Assembly: GCA_028698875.1 (NCBI GenBank)
Contig: JAQVVR010000005.1
Location: 19,916 to 83,915, forward strand
Direction of reading: 5' to 3'
DNA length: 64,000 nt
From: Candidatus Izemoplasmatales bacterium
GTDB lineage: Bacteria > Bacillota_I > Bacilli_A > Izemoplasmatales > Hujiaoplasmataceae
Under the pieces are notes generated by a model. The model saw only the letters and a program-made list of their open reading frames with translations, did no database searches and was not told where the DNA came from. Shown piece after piece: positions 11,603-49,369 of this stretch (position 1 is its first letter; every line of letters begins with the position of its first letter). Made by a program: the position numbers and the translations under genes.

Positions 11603-11709
11603 ATTTTCCTCCTTTCTATGGGGATTAATGGCATATCTCGGTAGATATTGCCCATGATGTAACCTTTTTGATTAATTTTTACAGAAGATGATTGCGATTT
11701 CGGGAATTG

Positions 11710-11718
11710 TGATAAAAT
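11710..11718 (+). promoter_or_regulatory. Extended -10 promoter of the EIIB-like/HPr-like operon
   Basis: TGATAAAAT gives an extended -10 (TG-n-TAAAAT) 24 bases before the start codon. No good -35 is seen at the correct spacing. Confidence 0.4.
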
Positions 11719-11741
11719 AATAAATACAAGAGGTGATAACA

Positions 11742-12128
11742 TTGATCAATTGGATGTTATGGATTTCCAATGAGCCATGGATTATGTGGGTAATGTGGGT
11801 ATCAATCGGTGTTTTCATTGTGGGCGGATTGATTTTGTTTTTTTCACTTCGAGCCCAAAGAAGACGGATTATGGATAAACCACTGGACACAGAAATTATT
11901 ACTGGGTTCATTCGCAACTTAGGTGGAATCGCCAATATTCAGCAAGCATCACAAGACGGAGCCAGACTGAAGTTTAATGTCCTCGATATCGAAAAGTGCA
12001 ACTTAGATGCAATTCGTAATTTAGGGGCATTAGGGATTTTTGTAACCGGTAATACCATCAAATTGATGTACCCTGGCAACGCAATGAGTGTGATTGATGG
12101 AATCAATCGTATCCACAAGGAGGAGTAA
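11742..12128 (+). CDS. Membrane-anchored PTS EIIB-like protein with Asp in place of the phospho-cysteine
   Basis: The 128-residue product has one N-terminal membrane segment (about residues 13-35), a basic stop (RAQRRR) and a C-terminal domain resembling glucose-family PTS EIIB. By eye it aligns without gaps to E. coli PtsG EIIB across GG-x-x-NI and RL-x5-D, then through LGA-G. At the position of the phosphorylated Cys it has Asp72. It therefore cannot carry phosphate as a thiophosphate. The TTG at 11742 is chosen because AGAGGTGA ends five bases upstream; the in-frame GTG at 11733 is inside that ribosome site, and ATG at 11754 is possible. It lies three bases before an HPr-like gene. A regulatory or protein-binding role is inferred. 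Confidence 0.65.
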   Translation: MINWMLWISNEPWIMWVMWVSIGVFIVGGLILFFSLRAQRRRIMDKPLDTEIITGFIRNLGGIANIQQASQDGARLKFNVLDIEKCNLDAIRNLGALGIFVTGNTIKLMYPGNAMSVIDGINRIHKEE

Positions 12129-12131
12129 CTG

Positions 12132-12404
12132 ATGATTGAAGCAAATTTCCGCATTACTTATCCAGACGGATTAAATGCACGACCAGCAACGATGCTTGTG
12201 GCGGTGGCCAACAGTTATTCATCCAAAATGATCTTAGAGTATCAAGATACACGAGTAACACTGAAGTCGATTATGGGCGTGTTATCGCTTGGAATTCCCG
12301 CTAATGTCAAATTTAAATTAACTTTTGATGGTGACGATGAGGGCGAAGCTTTTCAGGCCGTTGACAAGATTATTGTCAACATCAATCAACTGCCATGCAA
12401 ATAA
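12132..12404 (+). CDS. HPr-like protein lacking His15 (Crh-type)
   Basis: The 90-residue protein has the HPr fold pattern. The active-site motif reads GLNARPAT, where HPr has GIHARPAT, so residue 15 is Asn. The regulatory site is intact: Ser46 lies in LKSIMGVLSLG. B. subtilis Crh likewise lacks His15 (it has Gln) and keeps Ser46, acting only as a corepressor for CcpA after phosphorylation by HPr kinase. The same role is the best guess here. AAGGAGG at the end of the upstream gene is its ribosome site. HPr kinase and CcpA are not in the window. It is co-transcribed with the EIIB-like gene. Confidence 0.82.
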   Translation: MIEANFRITYPDGLNARPATMLVAVANSYSSKMILEYQDTRVTLKSIMGVLSLGIPANVKFKLTFDGDDEGEAFQAVDKIIVNINQLPCK

Positions 12405-12425
12405 GAAATAAATAATGCGATTTGA

Positions 12426-12454
12426 GAAATCCGTAATTATGGATTTCTTTTTTT
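12426..12454 (+). terminator. Terminator of the EIIB-like/HPr-like operon
   Basis: GAAATCC (12426-12432) pairs with GGATTTC (12441-12447), followed by seven T. It touches the end of trpS on the other strand. Confidence 0.8.
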
Positions 12455-42358: not shown

Positions 42359-45300
42359 GTGGAAAAATTGTACAAACACCATTTCATCGAGTTGTGTAAG
42401 CGGCTGAATTACAATACCATCGTTTTTATCAAAGAAACCAATGAGGTTCTTGGCATAAGGGATTTGCGTTTTCCCAATCGCGCCATGCCAAAGACCGCTT
42501 CTTTAAATATCGATTATGAGATGATATCCATTGATAATAGTCGAGTTTTCTATGGACTAAACCTTGCGCTTGATAATCAGACATTAATCTGTAGTGGATC
42601 AATTAATGTTATTGATATTGGTAAAGAACATGTTGTCATTGTTTTCTTTGAACCACGAATTTCAACTTTTCGGGACAATCAGACTCCACGAATTATGTGG
42701 AAGGATACTAGTTCGCGCTATTTAGGTTGTAGTGATTATGTGGCATATGAAAACGGTTTCGAACACTCGATGGTCGGATATAAAGACGATGAATTATTTG
42801 ATCATGAGATGCTTTATTCCTTTAAAGCATCGGATGAAGCCATCTTTTCCAATGGCAATTGTTTTTGGGGTTTAATAGGTCAAATAAAAATTAGAATTAA
42901 TGTTAATCCCATTCTTGTAAAATTAGAAAAATTTCCATATTATTCTCTTGAAAATACTTTAATTGGTTGTATAATCGTCTATCAGACAATCAATCAAGGC
43001 GTTGCACGAAACCCAGAACCATCAACGGGAATTCAAACACCTATAAATCATCTGATTGTTGGCAGATTACTTGAGGCGGCCAGTATTTTCATATTGATAC
43101 AAGACGTAGAAAAAGAGCCATCAATCGATTCTTTCAGTAGCAATCTGGGAATTCTTGGATATGATGAAAAGGATATTGCTTCAGGAAAGATTTCTCTAAA
43201 AAAAATTATATACCCGGGTGACTATGATCGGTTTAATGATGAAGTAAATATTCATTTATATAGCAAAAAAGAAACCTTTTGGACATCAGTAAGGATAATG
43301 AGTGTGAACGACGAAATTATTCCTGCTCGGATATATTTGACTCCATATCTTGGTAAAAATCAGAAGATATATAAAATTGGTATGCTAATTAGTTGTGAAA
43401 AAATCGCTGAAGATTTAACACAAAACTATGAAAAACTAGCAACGATTGCCAATCAAATGCCGACAGTTTTTACTACTCGAAGGGCTGATACAGCTAACGA
43501 AATCACTTTGATAACGGAAAATATCAATCAATTTGGATATTCTGCTGATGAATTCATTCATCTGCATCTTCCCTTTCGAAATATTATTCATCCTGATGAT
43601 TTGCGGGTGTACGACGATGCGGTTTCACAGATTTTGAACCATATACGAATGCGAATAGTATGTGAATATCGGTTGCTTTCTAAAAAAAATCAATCTTTTT
43701 GGGTTAGAGAAACAATGATGATGACGACAATCAAAGGTGTTGAATATATTGAATCGGCGATTGTTAACATAACCACGTCAAAGGCCGCGTATGAAGCCTT
43801 GGAGCACATCCATCTATATGAAGATTCTCGGATGAATAATATTCAGCAATTATCAAACAGTTTTAGTTTTACTTCTGCCGTACGTTACGCCAATGTTCAA
43901 GGAATCATTGATAAACTTGCGAAAACAATTCGGGCTGATGTTGCCATCTTTGATATTAACGATCAGCTCGTGATGACAACGAATGATAAATCGAAACTGA
44001 TTGAACAACTGATGAGTCAATTCATTGATTTTGCTTCATTTACAGTCAATGAACAAATCAAATGTCAAGACGAGAACATAGTTGTTATTGCTTTACCAGT
44101 CAAAAATGAAGATTATCGCATCGGTACCATGATTATTTTTGGTATTATTCCAGACAGTCAAGCTAACCGGGTTTCACGGGCTAATGTTGATTTTTATCAA
44201 AGGCTTCATATCATTCAAAAAGCTGATTTACCAATCATCAAAGCATATGGAGAATTGGTTGCCGAAAACATTGGGGTAATTATTTTTTCAACCGGTGTGG
44301 CTTTGATGCAGATTCAATCCTCTTCCCAATTTGCCGGCGATTTTTCGCGACAGAAAGTCAGTCACGAACTGCTATTAGAAATACTTAATGTTGCTAATGC
44401 AACGGACGACGTTGAGGAATGCTTCAATTTGATTATGCCAAAAATTGGCGAAGTAATGGAACTTTCACGATGTTCAATGTTTCAATATGAGGAATCTACA
44501 GACTTGTATAGTCTCGTATATGAATGGTATACGGGACCAGAAAAATCGCGAAAAGAAGTCTACCAAAAGATTAAAAAGGATGTAAGTTTCTTCAAAAAAT
44601 GGGATTTTGACAAACAAGCCAGTTTCCCCATTGATTATGACGATCTATTCCCTGACACCAAGCATTTTCGGGAATTTGCTCGTGCAATTGTTGGTGTTAG
44701 ACTTTTTAACGAACAAAAAAGATACGGTTTCTTAAATTTCGTTGATAACTTCTCGCCTCGCAAATGGACAACGGAAGAAGTAATGTTTTTTGAGGATGTT
44801 GCAAATATCATATCATCAATCATCAGTCGTGTTACTAGTAAACATCAAATCAGTCATAATGTTCAGGAGTATTATCGATCATCAGAGTCTATGCCAGCGG
44901 CAATTGCGATGGTGGAAACCAAAACGATGAAATGCCGCTATGCAAATCAAAAATTTTGGGAGTTAGTTCCACATACTAGTAAACGTTCCGGCCATCAAAT
45001 AAAAGACCTTGATGCTTGTATTCAAAGAATTGTCAGTGTTGTTCGCGATAAAAATGTTGACAGAGAAATCCATTTTACTGATTCAGACAAATGGTATGTA
45101 ATCAATCAATCAGCGGTCAACTTTGATAGCGAAGTAGCAACAACCATGTTAATTTTAACCGATATCACGCAAAACAAACGAACACAAGAAACCATTTCTT
45201 CGTTAGCATTCTCTGATATTTTAACCGGTATTCCCAATCGAATTAAATTTGAAATAGATCTCAAAGAATTATTTTCACATGATCGTTTGGAATATAATAA

Positions 45301-46489
45301 CAGTTTTATCTGTTTGTTAAATATTGATAATTTCCGGATGATTAATAACACTTTCAGTTATTCCTTTGGCGATTCGCTTTTAAAAAATGTTACCAAAAAA
45401 TTGCAGGAACTTCCGGAAATAGCGGAGCAACTATATCGGTTTGGCGGCGACGAATTCTGTATGTTGATTCATCAAAAAAACGATACCCCTGTGTATGATC
45501 TGGCTGGCATGATAATGCAAATTTTTGAAAAGCCATTTTACATTGATGGTTATGAAGCTAAATGCACCGTCAGTATGGGGATTGTATTTTTGAATGATTC
45601 GCAGTGTAACGTTAATGATTTGATTCGTCAGGCTAATTTAGCTTTGAAAGACGCGAAATTATCTGGTAAAAACCGATTCATGGTATATGATGCGTCGTTA
45701 AAAAAATATGAAGAAGATACGCTATTAATGGAACAAAAACTTAAAATAGCCATCGATAATGGATGTGAGGATTTTAAGGTTTTTTACCAACCAATTGTCA
45801 CAACCGCAACCGAGAAAATCGTTTCTGCAGAAGCTCTAGTTCGTTGGTTTTCACCTGATCTTGGATTAATTAGCCCGGTAAAATTTATCCCAATTGCTGA
45901 ATCGACCGGTTTGATAGTTCCTTTAGGAAAATTCATCTTAAATTCGGCTTGTAAGGAAGTTAAAAAATGGTTGGATTACGGCTACGATATCTCCGTTGCG
46001 GTGAATTTTTCGGTTATCCAGACATTACAATCAGATTTAGTAGAAACAATTACGAAAGCATTGAATACCTACCGCGTTCCTCCCAAAAACCTGGTGTTTG
46101 AAGTGACCGAAAGTTTGGCAATCAACGATATCAATAAGGTTATAGAAATCTTAACTGCAGTTCGACAAATTGGTGTTCGAATTGCTATGGATGATTTTGG
46201 GACTGGTTATTCTTCATTAAATCATCTCCGAAAACTCCCACTTGACATTGTCAAGATTGACCGCAGTTTTATTTTTAATATCGAATATGATCCATATACA
46301 ATTGCTTTTGTGAATACGATTGCGCAATTTTGTCATATGAAGGCTACCCGGGTATGCTGCGAAGGTGTCGAAAGTGAAACCCAAAAGAAGATGTTATCGG
46401 AAATACATGTTGATGACATGCAAGGATACTTATTTGGCAAACCATGTTCTGCCGAAGACTTTTGGGCACTCTTAATCAAAACTAATTGA
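42359..46489 (+). CDS. Large PAS/GAF-GGDEF-EAL cyclic-di-GMP protein
   Basis: The 1376-residue protein has no obvious membrane segment. Domains by eye: a poorly recognised N terminus (1-110), a PAS-like region (about 112-215), two PAS_3-like domains (about 240-340 and 360-480), a GAF-like region (about 500-640), a clearer GAF domain (about 670-825), another PAS (about 840-930), GGDEF with RFGGDEF at 1029-1033, then EAL with EALVRW at 1158. EAL residues look complete (VNFS, FEVTES, DDFGTGYSS, KIDRSF, EGVES). The diguanylate cyclase inhibitory RxxD site is absent. Synthesis and breakdown of c-di-GMP are both possible. It starts at GTG after AGGGGGA. It is the largest gene in the window. Confidence 0.85.
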   Translation: MEKLYKHHFIELCKRLNYNTIVFIKETNEVLGIRDLRFPNRAMPKTASLNIDYEMISIDNSRVFYGLNLALDNQTLICSGSINVIDIGKEHVVIVFFEPRISTFRDNQTPRIMWKDTSSRYLGCSDYVAYENGFEHSMVGYKDDELFDHEMLYSFKASDEAIFSNGNCFWGLIGQIKIRINVNPILVKLEKFPYYSLENTLIGCIIVYQTINQGVARNPEPSTGIQTPINHLIVGRLLEAASIFILIQDVEKEPSIDSFSSNLGILGYDEKDIASGKISLKKIIYPGDYDRFNDEVNIHLYSKKETFWTSVRIMSVNDEIIPARIYLTPYLGKNQKIYKIGMLISCEKIAEDLTQNYEKLATIANQMPTVFTTRRADTANEITLITENINQFGYSADEFIHLHLPFRNIIHPDDLRVYDDAVSQILNHIRMRIVCEYRLLSKKNQSFWVRETMMMTTIKGVEYIESAIVNITTSKAAYEALEHIHLYEDSRMNNIQQLSNSFSFTSAVRYANVQGIIDKLAKTIRADVAIFDINDQLVMTTNDKSKLIEQLMSQFIDFASFTVNEQIKCQDENIVVIALPVKNEDYRIGTMIIFGIIPDSQANRVSRANVDFYQRLHIIQKADLPIIKAYGELVAENIGVIIFSTGVALMQIQSSSQFAGDFSRQKVSHELLLEILNVANATDDVEECFNLIMPKIGEVMELSRCSMFQYEESTDLYSLVYEWYTGPEKSRKEVYQKIKKDVSFFKKWDFDKQASFPIDYDDLFPDTKHFREFARAIVGVRLFNEQKRYGFLNFVDNFSPRKWTTEEVMFFEDVANIISSIISRVTSKHQISHNVQEYYRSSESMPAAIAMVETKTMKCRYANQKFWELVPHTSKRSGHQIKDLDACIQRIVSVVRDKNVDREIHFTDSDKWYVINQSAVNFDSEVATTMLILTDITQNKRTQETISSLAFSDILTGIPNRIKFEIDLKELFSHDRLEYNNSFICLLNIDNFRMINNTFSYSFGDSLLKNVTKKLQELPEIAEQLYRFGGDEFCMLIHQKNDTPVYDLAGMIMQIFEKPFYIDGYEAKCTVSMGIVFLNDSQCNVNDLIRQANLALKDAKLSGKNRFMVYDASLKKYEEDTLLMEQKLKIAIDNGCEDFKVFYQPIVTTATEKIVSAEALVRWFSPDLGLISPVKFIPIAESTGLIVPLGKFILNSACKEVKKWLDYGYDISVAVNFSVIQTLQSDLVETITKALNTYRVPPKNLVFEVTESLAINDINKVIEILTAVRQIGVRIAMDDFGTGYSSLNHLRKLPLDIVKIDRSFIFNIEYDPYTIAFVNTIAQFCHMKATRVCCEGVESETQKKMLSEIHVDDMQGYLFGKPCSAEDFWALLIKTN

Positions 46490-46555
46490 CCAGCAAATCA
46501 AATAAAACTGATTTAACTTAGTATATAGTACTAGATAGAAAGTGTGGTTGGTATT

Positions 46556-49369
46556 ATGTTTAAAATCGAAACAAACGAATTCAATCAGGATGAAATTATA
46601 AAAAACGGTAATAAGTTCATAATCGGAAACGGATTTTTTGGATATCGCGGTACTTTAGAAGAATATTCGCGGGACCAAATGGTTTCTTTAAACATGGCCG
46701 GTTTATATGATCAAAACGGAACTAAATGGCGGGAATCAGTCAACGCTTTTAATCCGCTTTATACATATCTTAAAGTTAACGGTAATATGCTTAATCCTTT
46801 GAAAATCACACCAACAAGTCATACTCAAGGTCTTGATATGGAAGTTGGCACGCATTATCGAAAAACGACATTTACTCTTGACGATACGGAGATTACGATA
46901 ACTTCCGAACGGTTTTCTGGGCAAGCCAACTACCGAGTATTGGTTATGAAGTATTCCTTTTTTGTCAACAAGCCAGTTGTTGTCGATTTGTTAACCGGAA
47001 TCGATACATCGGTGTATGATATCAATGGACCACACTTAGAAAACATGATTTTTCACGATGCTTTTGGATCATATACGGTTGTTGCGGAAACAGTCGAAAA
47101 TAAATATAAATTAGCGGTATCAGAAATCGTTAAGTGCGATTTTTCGGCGGAAGACGAGACATTGTTAATCAATGGTTTAGCGATGCGACGGTTCCGCGTC
47201 AACGCCGAACCAGATCAAATTTATTCAATCTATAAATACGTCGGCATTGAGCACACATGGGCTGATTCCGAAGAAAAAGCTCGTTCAGCGGCGATATGGG
47301 CGGCTGAACAAGGCTATGAAAACCTATGCAACGAAAATATCGCTTTTTGGAAACAAAAGTGGAATTTTTCTGATATCGAGATTAAAGGTGATGCAGAAGC
47401 CCAGCTGGCAATTCGCAATAGTATCTACCATTTAATTATTGTTCGACCCTGGAGTGAATACCGTGGAATCCCGATTCGGGGATTATCTGGACAAGTGTAC
47501 AAAGGATCAGTTGCTTGGGACACCGAAATATTCATGCTCCCATTTTATTTAAACACGGATTTGGATTCAGCCAGAAAAATTATTATGTACCGGATTCATA
47601 CGCTTGAAGGAGCAATGCGAAAAGCTAATTCATATGGATATAAAGGGGCATTTTATGCTTTAGAAAGCCAAGATACTGGTGATGATGCTTGCACTGATTT
47701 CAACGTTACTGATGCCGAAACCGGAACACCGATTCGAACTTCAGTCAAAGAACAACAAATTCATATTTCCGCTGATGTCGTTTATGCAATCGACCGTTAT
47801 GTGAGTCAAACCAACGATCATACTGTATTAATTGATGGTGGTTTACGAACGATTATTGAATGTGCTCGGTTTTATCAATCATACGTTTCCTTTTCATTGG
47901 AAAAAAATTGTTATGAAGTTCGAAATGTTGTTGGGCCCGATGAATATCATGAGGGAGTAAACAATAATGCTTATACCAATAAGATGATATCTGCAACTTT
48001 TGCTTCCATGATTCGATTAACAAAAATGGTTCGCGGAATTGACAACAATTGGGTAAATGAGTTGATTAGAGAATATGATTATGAGACCGATATTGAAGCT
48101 ATAAAAGTGATTGCAAAAGCATTATATGTTCCAAAACCAGACGAAAACCACATAATCGAACAATTCGATGGCTATCATTTGTTGGAAAACATCCAAATTG
48201 ATGATTTAAAAAAACGGATGAAACATCCTAATGAATATCTTGGTGGTGCGCATGGACTAGCAACACCAACACAAATTATCAAACAAGCTGATGTCGTGAC
48301 GATGATTACCACTTTTCGTGATGATTATTCAAAATTGGTAAAAATGGCAAATTGGAAATACTATGAGCCAAGAACGGAACATTTTGGTCCAAGCCTGTCT
48401 TCGGCTATGTATGCACTTCTAGGATGTGAAATTGGTGAATACGATTATGCTTTCGCTCAATTTATGCAATGCGCAACCATTGATTTAAACGGTGAAGGCA
48501 GATCATATTCAGGCGGAATATATGTTGGTGGTACTCATCCTGCGGCGAGTGGCGGAGCCTATATGGATATTGTCTATGGATTTGCCGGTATAAAACACCT
48601 TAATGGGCTTTTGTCTGGTGATTCACGTTTGCCAAAGCGGATTACCGAATTGCGGTTTAAATGTACCGAAATGGGGAAAGTCGCCAATGTATCGATTAAA
48701 ACGAATGGTGTAAGGATTACATGGGAAAAACGGAAGAATATCCAAGCAGTTATCTTTGATTTGGATGGAGTAATTGTATCCACGGATCATATGCACTATC
48801 AAGCTTGGAAAAAGATTGCCGATCGAGAGAATATTCCCTTTAATCGGACAATTAATAAAAAACTTTTAGGCGTATCAAGAATGGAGTCTTTGGAGATTAT
48901 CCTGAAGAAAGCGGAACGCAAGTATACTCAAATTGAGAAGAATAACATGGCAGCTTTTAAAAACGCTGAGTATATCAATCTGCTAAGCAAATTAACTACC
49001 AAGGACATTTTGCCTGGAGTCGCCGTTACTTTTGCTTTCTTAAAATCGAAACGAATTAAGATTGCCGGAACATCTGGCAGTCAAAACGCGGCGTTAATTC
49101 TGCAACAAACCAATTTAGGTTCAGCTTTTGATGTGTTTATCGATGGCAATGATGTTTCAACGCCCAAACCCAATCCCGAGGTTTTCTTACGAGCGGCAGC
49201 CAAATTAGAAATAAATCCCGAAAATTGTCTGGTTGTTGATGATGCGATGATTGGCATTCAAGCCGCCAAAGGAGGAGGGATGTTTGCCGCAGGAATTAGC
49301 GAAGCTGAGGACAGCCCGATGTGTGATTGGAAGTTAAAAGAGTTGACAGATTTAATCAATTTGTTTTAA
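46556..49369 (+). CDS. Glycoside phosphorylase (GH65) fused to beta-phosphoglucomutase
   Basis: The 937-residue protein joins two enzymes. Residues about 1-720 are GH65: N-terminal FIIGNGFFGYRGTLEE, RGLSGQVYKGSVAWDTE, the catalytic motif GPDEYHEGVNNNAYTN (about 460-475) and HGLATPTQIIKQADV. Residues about 725-937 are a HAD beta-phosphoglucomutase with IFDLDGVIVSTD (nucleophile Asp735), GTSGSQNA and VVDDAMIGIQAAK. GH65 would split maltose, trehalose, kojibiose or nigerose with phosphate to glucose plus beta-glucose 1-phosphate; the mutase half would convert that to glucose 6-phosphate. The donor sugar is not identifiable. The ATG at 46556 has only a weak ribosome site; GTG at 46544 is possible. 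Confidence 0.9.
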   Translation: MFKIETNEFNQDEIIKNGNKFIIGNGFFGYRGTLEEYSRDQMVSLNMAGLYDQNGTKWRESVNAFNPLYTYLKVNGNMLNPLKITPTSHTQGLDMEVGTHYRKTTFTLDDTEITITSERFSGQANYRVLVMKYSFFVNKPVVVDLLTGIDTSVYDINGPHLENMIFHDAFGSYTVVAETVENKYKLAVSEIVKCDFSAEDETLLINGLAMRRFRVNAEPDQIYSIYKYVGIEHTWADSEEKARSAAIWAAEQGYENLCNENIAFWKQKWNFSDIEIKGDAEAQLAIRNSIYHLIIVRPWSEYRGIPIRGLSGQVYKGSVAWDTEIFMLPFYLNTDLDSARKIIMYRIHTLEGAMRKANSYGYKGAFYALESQDTGDDACTDFNVTDAETGTPIRTSVKEQQIHISADVVYAIDRYVSQTNDHTVLIDGGLRTIIECARFYQSYVSFSLEKNCYEVRNVVGPDEYHEGVNNNAYTNKMISATFASMIRLTKMVRGIDNNWVNELIREYDYETDIEAIKVIAKALYVPKPDENHIIEQFDGYHLLENIQIDDLKKRMKHPNEYLGGAHGLATPTQIIKQADVVTMITTFRDDYSKLVKMANWKYYEPRTEHFGPSLSSAMYALLGCEIGEYDYAFAQFMQCATIDLNGEGRSYSGGIYVGGTHPAASGGAYMDIVYGFAGIKHLNGLLSGDSRLPKRITELRFKCTEMGKVANVSIKTNGVRITWEKRKNIQAVIFDLDGVIVSTDHMHYQAWKKIADRENIPFNRTINKKLLGVSRMESLEIILKKAERKYTQIEKNNMAAFKNAEYINLLSKLTTKDILPGVAVTFAFLKSKRIKIAGTSGSQNAALILQQTNLGSAFDVFIDGNDVSTPKPNPEVFLRAAAKLEINPENCLVVDDAMIGIQAAKGGGMFAAGISEAEDSPMCDWKLKELTDLINLF

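Follow-up and report, generated by a model that had tools for sequence, protein, structure and literature searches.

A probable remnant of a PTS operon in a wall-less Izemoplasmatales bacterium: an HPr without His15 encoded beside a Cys-less, membrane-anchored EIIB-like protein

Within the 64,000 nucleotides analysed here (hereafter the window), the genome of a wall-less bacterium of the Izemoplasmatales carries a two-gene operon of PTS-derived proteins, which we consider, with somewhat better than even confidence, to be the remnant of an EIIB-ptsH-ptsI operon, namely an HPr of which only the Ser46 site is left, together with a membrane adaptor without catalytic function that belongs to the MG_129 family. 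The EIIB fold, the residue losses in both proteins, the conservation of the operon, the absence of a detectable enzyme I (EI), the presence of an HPr kinase and the selection acting on both genes are direct observations. As leftovers of a sugar-uptake phosphorelay no longer able to pass phosphate along, both proteins are probably confined by now to regulation or to docking at the membrane.

All features of the operon lie on the forward strand, and the two open reading frames have the coordinates and the 3-nt spacing given in the preliminary description of this DNA. The EIIB-like gene (11742-12128) starts at a TTG and encodes 128 residues comprising one transmembrane helix and a glucose-type EIIB fold, and the HPr-family gene (12132-12404) encodes 90 residues and is the sole HPr gene found in the genome. 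Ribosome binding sites were recognised by their sequence for both genes: GAGGTGAT (11730-11737) serves the EIIB-like gene and includes at 11730 the motif GAGGTG, also found upstream of most EIIB-like homologues, and AAGGAGGAG (12117-12125), serving the HPr gene, lies within the 3' end of the EIIB-like gene. Further upstream, TTGCGA-18-AATAAT (11692-11721) is promoter-like, the count of such sites being no higher than chance (4 found vs. 4.0 expected), and downstream an intrinsic-terminator-like stem-loop followed by a T run (12424-12449) ends the two-gene unit.

Regarding the first protein, the single sequence stays below the curated cut-off of the Pfam EIIB family (PF00367; 14.9 vs. 27 bits), and its family matches are weak and belong to EIIB families only, the NCBIfam glucose IIBC family scoring about 25 bits. 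A profile of 48 relatives matches E. coli EIIB-Glc (PDB) without gaps at E=2.4e-14 and, together with the homologues, places Asp72 (codon GAC, 11955-11957) opposite the catalytic Cys421, the position that had first been assigned to it by eye. The AlphaFold2 model is confident (mean pLDDT 90.8) and presents one long N-terminal helix followed by the EIIB fold, with EIIB-Glc 3bp3 as best Foldseek match (E=3.3e-6, rmsd 1.6 A, TM 0.86 by target), so that the anchored EIIB-like domain proposed from the outset is corroborated. The transmembrane segment, at about residues 15-36 (11784-11849), falls inside the predicted helix 12-44 and is supported by a hydrophobicity test over 108 homologues. The latter, hereafter the anchored set, are EIIB-like proteins, all different, that do not exceed 260 aa and carry a hydrophobic segment at their N-terminus; they were sampled phylum-wide with mycoplasma-type genomes included. 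Since the catalytic Cys is absent from 106 of these 108 proteins, its loss is a trait of the whole EIIB-like family and not of the window's operon; it is present in 16 of the 17 long (permease) EIIBs recovered by the same profile. Opposite E. coli Arg424, the homologue alignment places Arg75 (codon AGA, 11964-11966), conserved as Arg or Lys in 97/108. Searching with PF02378, the PTS_EIIC domain was not found in the window's genome and was present in 3 of 34 family genomes. As a side observation, the EIIB-like proteins of family f10 (L115, L116), also encoded alongside HPr, bear a longer hydrophobic N-terminal extension, amounting to some 220-230 aa in total with several likely membrane segments.

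The second protein belongs to the HPr family (PF00381; 75 bits vs. a cut-off of 23), and alignment with HPr confirms that Asn15 (codon AAT, 12174-12176) replaces the phosphorylated His15, with Arg17 in place and with Ser46 (codon TCG, 12267-12269), the HPr-kinase site, retained in the conserved motif KSIMGVLSLG. Searched by protein family as well as by stretches, the window's genome (G000; 1.42 Mb, 34 contigs, 88% complete) holds one HPr, one HPr kinase and one CcpA-like LacI protein; at this level of completeness, no second, His15-bearing HPr was found. Of the related components looked for, the HPr kinase is thus at hand, as is a CcpA-like protein, though with changed contacts, but neither a normal HPr nor a PTS_EIIC permease was recovered from this genome. 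The EI N-terminal domain (PF05524) was likewise not found in the window's genome, in its close relative G020 or in G006-G010, two of these genomes being closed, and all of them encode an HPr kinase, whose P-loop is intact.

Position 15 follows the presence of EI closely within the window's family, being His in 23 of the 30 pairs, Asn in the window's genome and G020, and Gln in G006-G010; in other words, among family genomes in which the pair was read, His15 is lost in 7/7 without EI vs. 0/23 with EI (Fisher p=5e-7, counting as independent genomes that are related). In the tree of both proteins, the Asn15 and Gln15 sequences form separate clades, each with His15 sisters, and His15 was therefore lost twice independently, the match with EI amounting to two evolutionary events. 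In a second family the match is imperfect, as G034 and G035 (both incomplete) and G077 (96% complete) retain His15 with no EI found. Ser46 and Arg17 are kept in all HPrs of the pairs read, and between the window's genome and G020 the dN/dS is about 0.11 for the EIIB-like gene and about 0.08 for HPr. Given that the genome still encodes an HPr kinase and that the surroundings of Ser46 are conserved, phosphorylation of Ser46 is the chemistry expected to remain in this HPr, which, judging from its sequence, would be modifiable only there, by HPr kinase/phosphatase, and may act as a Crh-like regulator; the Ser46-only HPr initially suggested is in keeping with a kinase retained in G000 and G020, where no EI was found. 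Besides, many relatives of the window's family (L129-L133, L135, L137-L142) harbour a second HPr with the motif GLHAELA, in which Arg17 and Pro18 are replaced and His15 and Ser46 kept; it is located between the phosphoglycerate kinase and triosephosphate isomerase genes in L142, with flanking ORFs of similar sizes in most others, and is absent from the window's genome. A stand-alone N-terminal half of EI, made of PF05524 and the mobile domain PF00391 with no PEP-binding domain, also occurs in relatives (L143-L145, L147 and L148); it adjoins dnaX in L147 and is the only EI-type protein found in genus g10.

As for what such an HPr would act upon, standard catabolite repression of the Crh type would have the HPr kinase phosphorylate Ser46 and Ser46-P HPr bind a CcpA orthologue to repress at cre sites. 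The intact P-loop of the kinase, the conservation of Ser46 and Arg17, and a CcpA-like protein in every family genome (the sole LacI-family match in G000 and G008, encoded beside tyrS where read) speak for it. However, the CcpA-like proteins reach about 240 bits where the cut-off is 442, and the one of the window's genome has Ala at 303 and His at 307, instead of the Arg and Lys found at the Ser46-P site of Bacillus CcpA; over the seven CcpA-like proteins read, the Arg303 position is Ala in six and Lys in one, and the Lys307 position is His, Glu, Gln or Lys. The equivalent of Arg303 in B. subtilis CcpA, Arg304, is described as the most important residue for HPr-Ser46-P (PMC4591507). This change of contacts was not caused by the loss of His15, since members retaining His15 share it. 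With a CcpA-like protein deprived of the canonical Ser-P contacts, the standard Crh-CcpA relay is doubtful, and the Crh-CcpA interpretation of the preliminary description finds no support by the known interface; we see this classical route as possible but on the improbable side. Separately, CcpA-like regulators next to tyrS (L149 2580-3587, L152 1275-2315 and others) have Lys or Arg at 300, which might compensate for the changed contacts.

At the level of gene organisation, the EIIB-like and HPr genes are adjacent, with gaps of -8 to +16 nt, in 48/48 loci measured, i.e. in the 30 genomes of the window's family with a tabulated EIIB-like locus and in 18 genomes of the second family with a measured gap. 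Altogether the EIIB-like gene stands beside HPr in seven families (f1, f2, f10, f12, f14, f16 and f22), and HPr is absent from the EIIB-like flanks read in f5, f9, f13, f15, f18 and f20. The closest named relatives, from a profile scan of named genomes (13 loci), are Izemoplasmatales/Tenericutes genomes, e.g. CP076020.1, a closed genome encoding the pair. Chance pairing of the two genes was considered and ruled out on this conserved adjacency and on the dN/dS values. In two f14 genomes (loci L229 and L204), the gene order is EIIB-like, ptsH, ptsI and the Cys is kept in one of them (G141, EIIB-like of L229), an operon that likely represents the ancestral state. A conserved third gene was sought in the EIIB-like flanks and none was found: the neighbours vary, with ppa and trpS in the window's genome, transketolase in f5 and f18 and an FtsW/RodA-type gene in f15, and they are therefore uninformative on function, except for HPr and, in f14, EI.

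The same comparison bears on the earlier suggestion that both catalytic residues were lost in a linked manner, which proves misleading because the two losses differ in age and cause: the Cys is missing almost throughout the phylum and relatives retaining His15 have the same Cys-less EIIB-like neighbour, whereas His15 was lost in two recent EI-less lineages only.

Of note, the EIIB-like gene can outlive its neighbour. In G071 (99% complete), a family search returned no match for HPr, EI or HPr kinase, and the EIIB-like gene nonetheless still occupies the same locus, flanked by pepF and trpS to one side and by ppa to the other, while the HPr gene is gone; compared with G069, also devoid of HPr, its dN/dS is about 0.24. 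Since the gene persists there in the absence of HPr, HPr kinase and EI, HPr is dispensable for the role of the EIIB-like protein. This weighs on the reading first put forward, by which the EIIB-like protein, with an acidic residue standing in for the Cys as a mimic of phospho-EIIB, docks HPr in one membrane-bound regulatory complex. The tight spacing of the two genes in all the loci of two families, the occurrence of the pair in five more, and an acidic residue at the Cys site in 26 of the 30 members of the window's family all argue for such a complex. Phylum-wide, however, that residue is Asp or Glu in 48/108 anchored homologues, being elsewhere Thr, Gln, Lys, Ile, Val or others, which does not support a strict Asp phosphomimic, and the EIIB-like protein is retained without any HPr in G071 or without an adjacent one in the six families listed above. 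A further argument against the complex is that the docking partner of canonical glucose EIIB is EIIA rather than HPr. While the membrane tether and the Ser46-only HPr of this proposed module stand, HPr docking as the reason for keeping the EIIB-like protein finds no support in G071 or in these families, and we hold the complex as a whole to be very unlikely.

Loss of the defining catalytic residue from both proteins could also suggest a decaying relic, both genes being pseudogene-like and functionless. Against this, the dN/dS is about 0.1 in two lineages and remains at the above-mentioned value for the EIIB-like gene where HPr has gone, and the EIIB-like gene has been kept phylum-wide, genomes of 0.6-0.9 Mb among them. 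The pseudogene reading was rejected on conservation and dN/dS, and decay appears extremely improbable.

Mycoplasma-type genomes, which read TGA as Trp, also encode an EIIB-like protein. In one of 0.6 Mb it has 120 aa and is encoded between an NAD kinase gene and an HD-domain (RNase Y-like) gene; from the gene order and the genetic code, among other features, we take this genome to be M. genitalium and the protein to be MG_129. A single profile recovers both this mycoplasma-type member and the window's protein as short, membrane-anchored, Cys-less EIIBs, which indicates that the EIIB-like protein belongs to the same family as MG_129, the orphan EIIB of Mycoplasma genitalium. In the literature on degenerate or orphan EIIBs, one paper was found for this family: a pooled AlphaFold3 screen of M. 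genitalium published in 2026, where MG_129 and PtsH are both predicted to bind FtsY, with moonlighting suggested, a modest ipTM and one FtsY-MPN_268 crosslink cited, which spans 33.4 A in the model (PMC13047044). The literature on Izemoplasma and Tenericutes yielded no account of an HPr of the window's type.

These predictions raise a link with membrane targeting, in which the EIIB-like protein would anchor or sense FtsY, the receptor of SRP, under modulation by HPr in its free or Ser46-P form, tying protein insertion to the carbon state. Besides the two predicted contacts and the crosslink, it is favoured by the finding of this work that both predicted FtsY partners are encoded by adjacent genes in the seven families of the phylum; as HPr is the gene neighbour of the EIIB-like gene there, the link between these two proteins gains genomic support independent of structure prediction. 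Conversely, the flanks read disclose no genomic tie to ftsY, the prediction scores are modest and come from a distant organism, and HPr is dispensable in G071. Such an FtsY link is, in our estimation, unlikely. Its broadest form, that a phylum-wide non-catalytic EIIB adaptor and the Ser46 state of HPr together control a membrane process unrelated to sugar transport, namely protein targeting through FtsY, by a connection that would have outlived the PTS itself, is distinctly doubtful.

Returning to the remnant operon as the preferred explanation, the simplest history that the sequences suggest would run from an ancestral unit of membrane EIIB, ptsH and ptsI, through an early loss of the Cys, to a later loss of ptsI accompanied by that of His15. 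Early in the phylum, the EIIB-like protein would have lost the Cys and, no longer catalytic, become an adaptor held in the membrane by one helix and maintained for a function that depends on neither phosphotransfer nor HPr. HPr would have retained His15 for as long as the genome encoded an EI N-terminal domain; once EI was lost, which happened in the window's lineage and, as a separate event, in another genus of the family, His15 would have changed to Asn or Gln under otherwise strong purifying selection. The remaining HPr may thus exert regulation through Ser46-P, and the EIIB-like protein may serve as adaptor for a membrane partner, of which FtsY would be the best current candidate.

Elsewhere in the window, a glycoside hydrolase family 65 phosphorylase is fused to a HAD-type hydrolase (46544-49369); as a possible disaccharide phosphorylase plus phosphoglucomutase, this fusion is a plausible PTS-free sugar route. 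A large PAS-GGDEF-EAL protein of 1376 aa is encoded at 42359-46489, in this 1.4-Mb Izemoplasmatales genome.

Beyond this single operon, the family offers a natural experiment separating the two roles of HPr. As EI is gone and His15 lost with Ser46 and the HPr kinase kept, the kinase arm is valuable by itself in PTS-free bacteria, its target possibly being other than canonical CcpA. Besides, the data indicate that the obscure orphan EIIB MG_129 has its place in a phylum-wide, Cys-less, membrane-anchored family. Among known systems, the EIIB domain of the glucose permease PtsG/EIICB-Glc shares the fold of the window's protein and the Arg at the Arg424 position; the window's protein differs in having no Cys, no EIIC domain, no EIIC partner found and one anchoring helix, and in scoring below the Pfam cut-off. 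Crh of Bacillus subtilis resembles the window's HPr by its HPr fold, the absence of His15, the retention of Ser46 and the presence of an HPr kinase, and Crh has Gln15, as does another genus of the window's family. Yet Crh coexists with a normal HPr, of which it is a paralogue, whereas the window's protein is the sole HPr found, derived from the genome's own ptsH by loss of His15, and the CcpA-like protein expected to partner it has other residues at the canonical contacts. Likewise, MG_129 and MPN_268 of M. genitalium and M. pneumoniae (PMC13047044) are small, membrane-anchored, Cys-less EIIB folds with no separate EIIA or EIIC partners, but the mycoplasma gene is not beside ptsH, unlike the window's gene, which forms an operon with HPr in a genome where neither PTS permease nor EI was found. 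The window's pair is, in this respect, a new version of two elements already known, HPr/Crh on the one hand and the MG_129-type orphan EIIB on the other.
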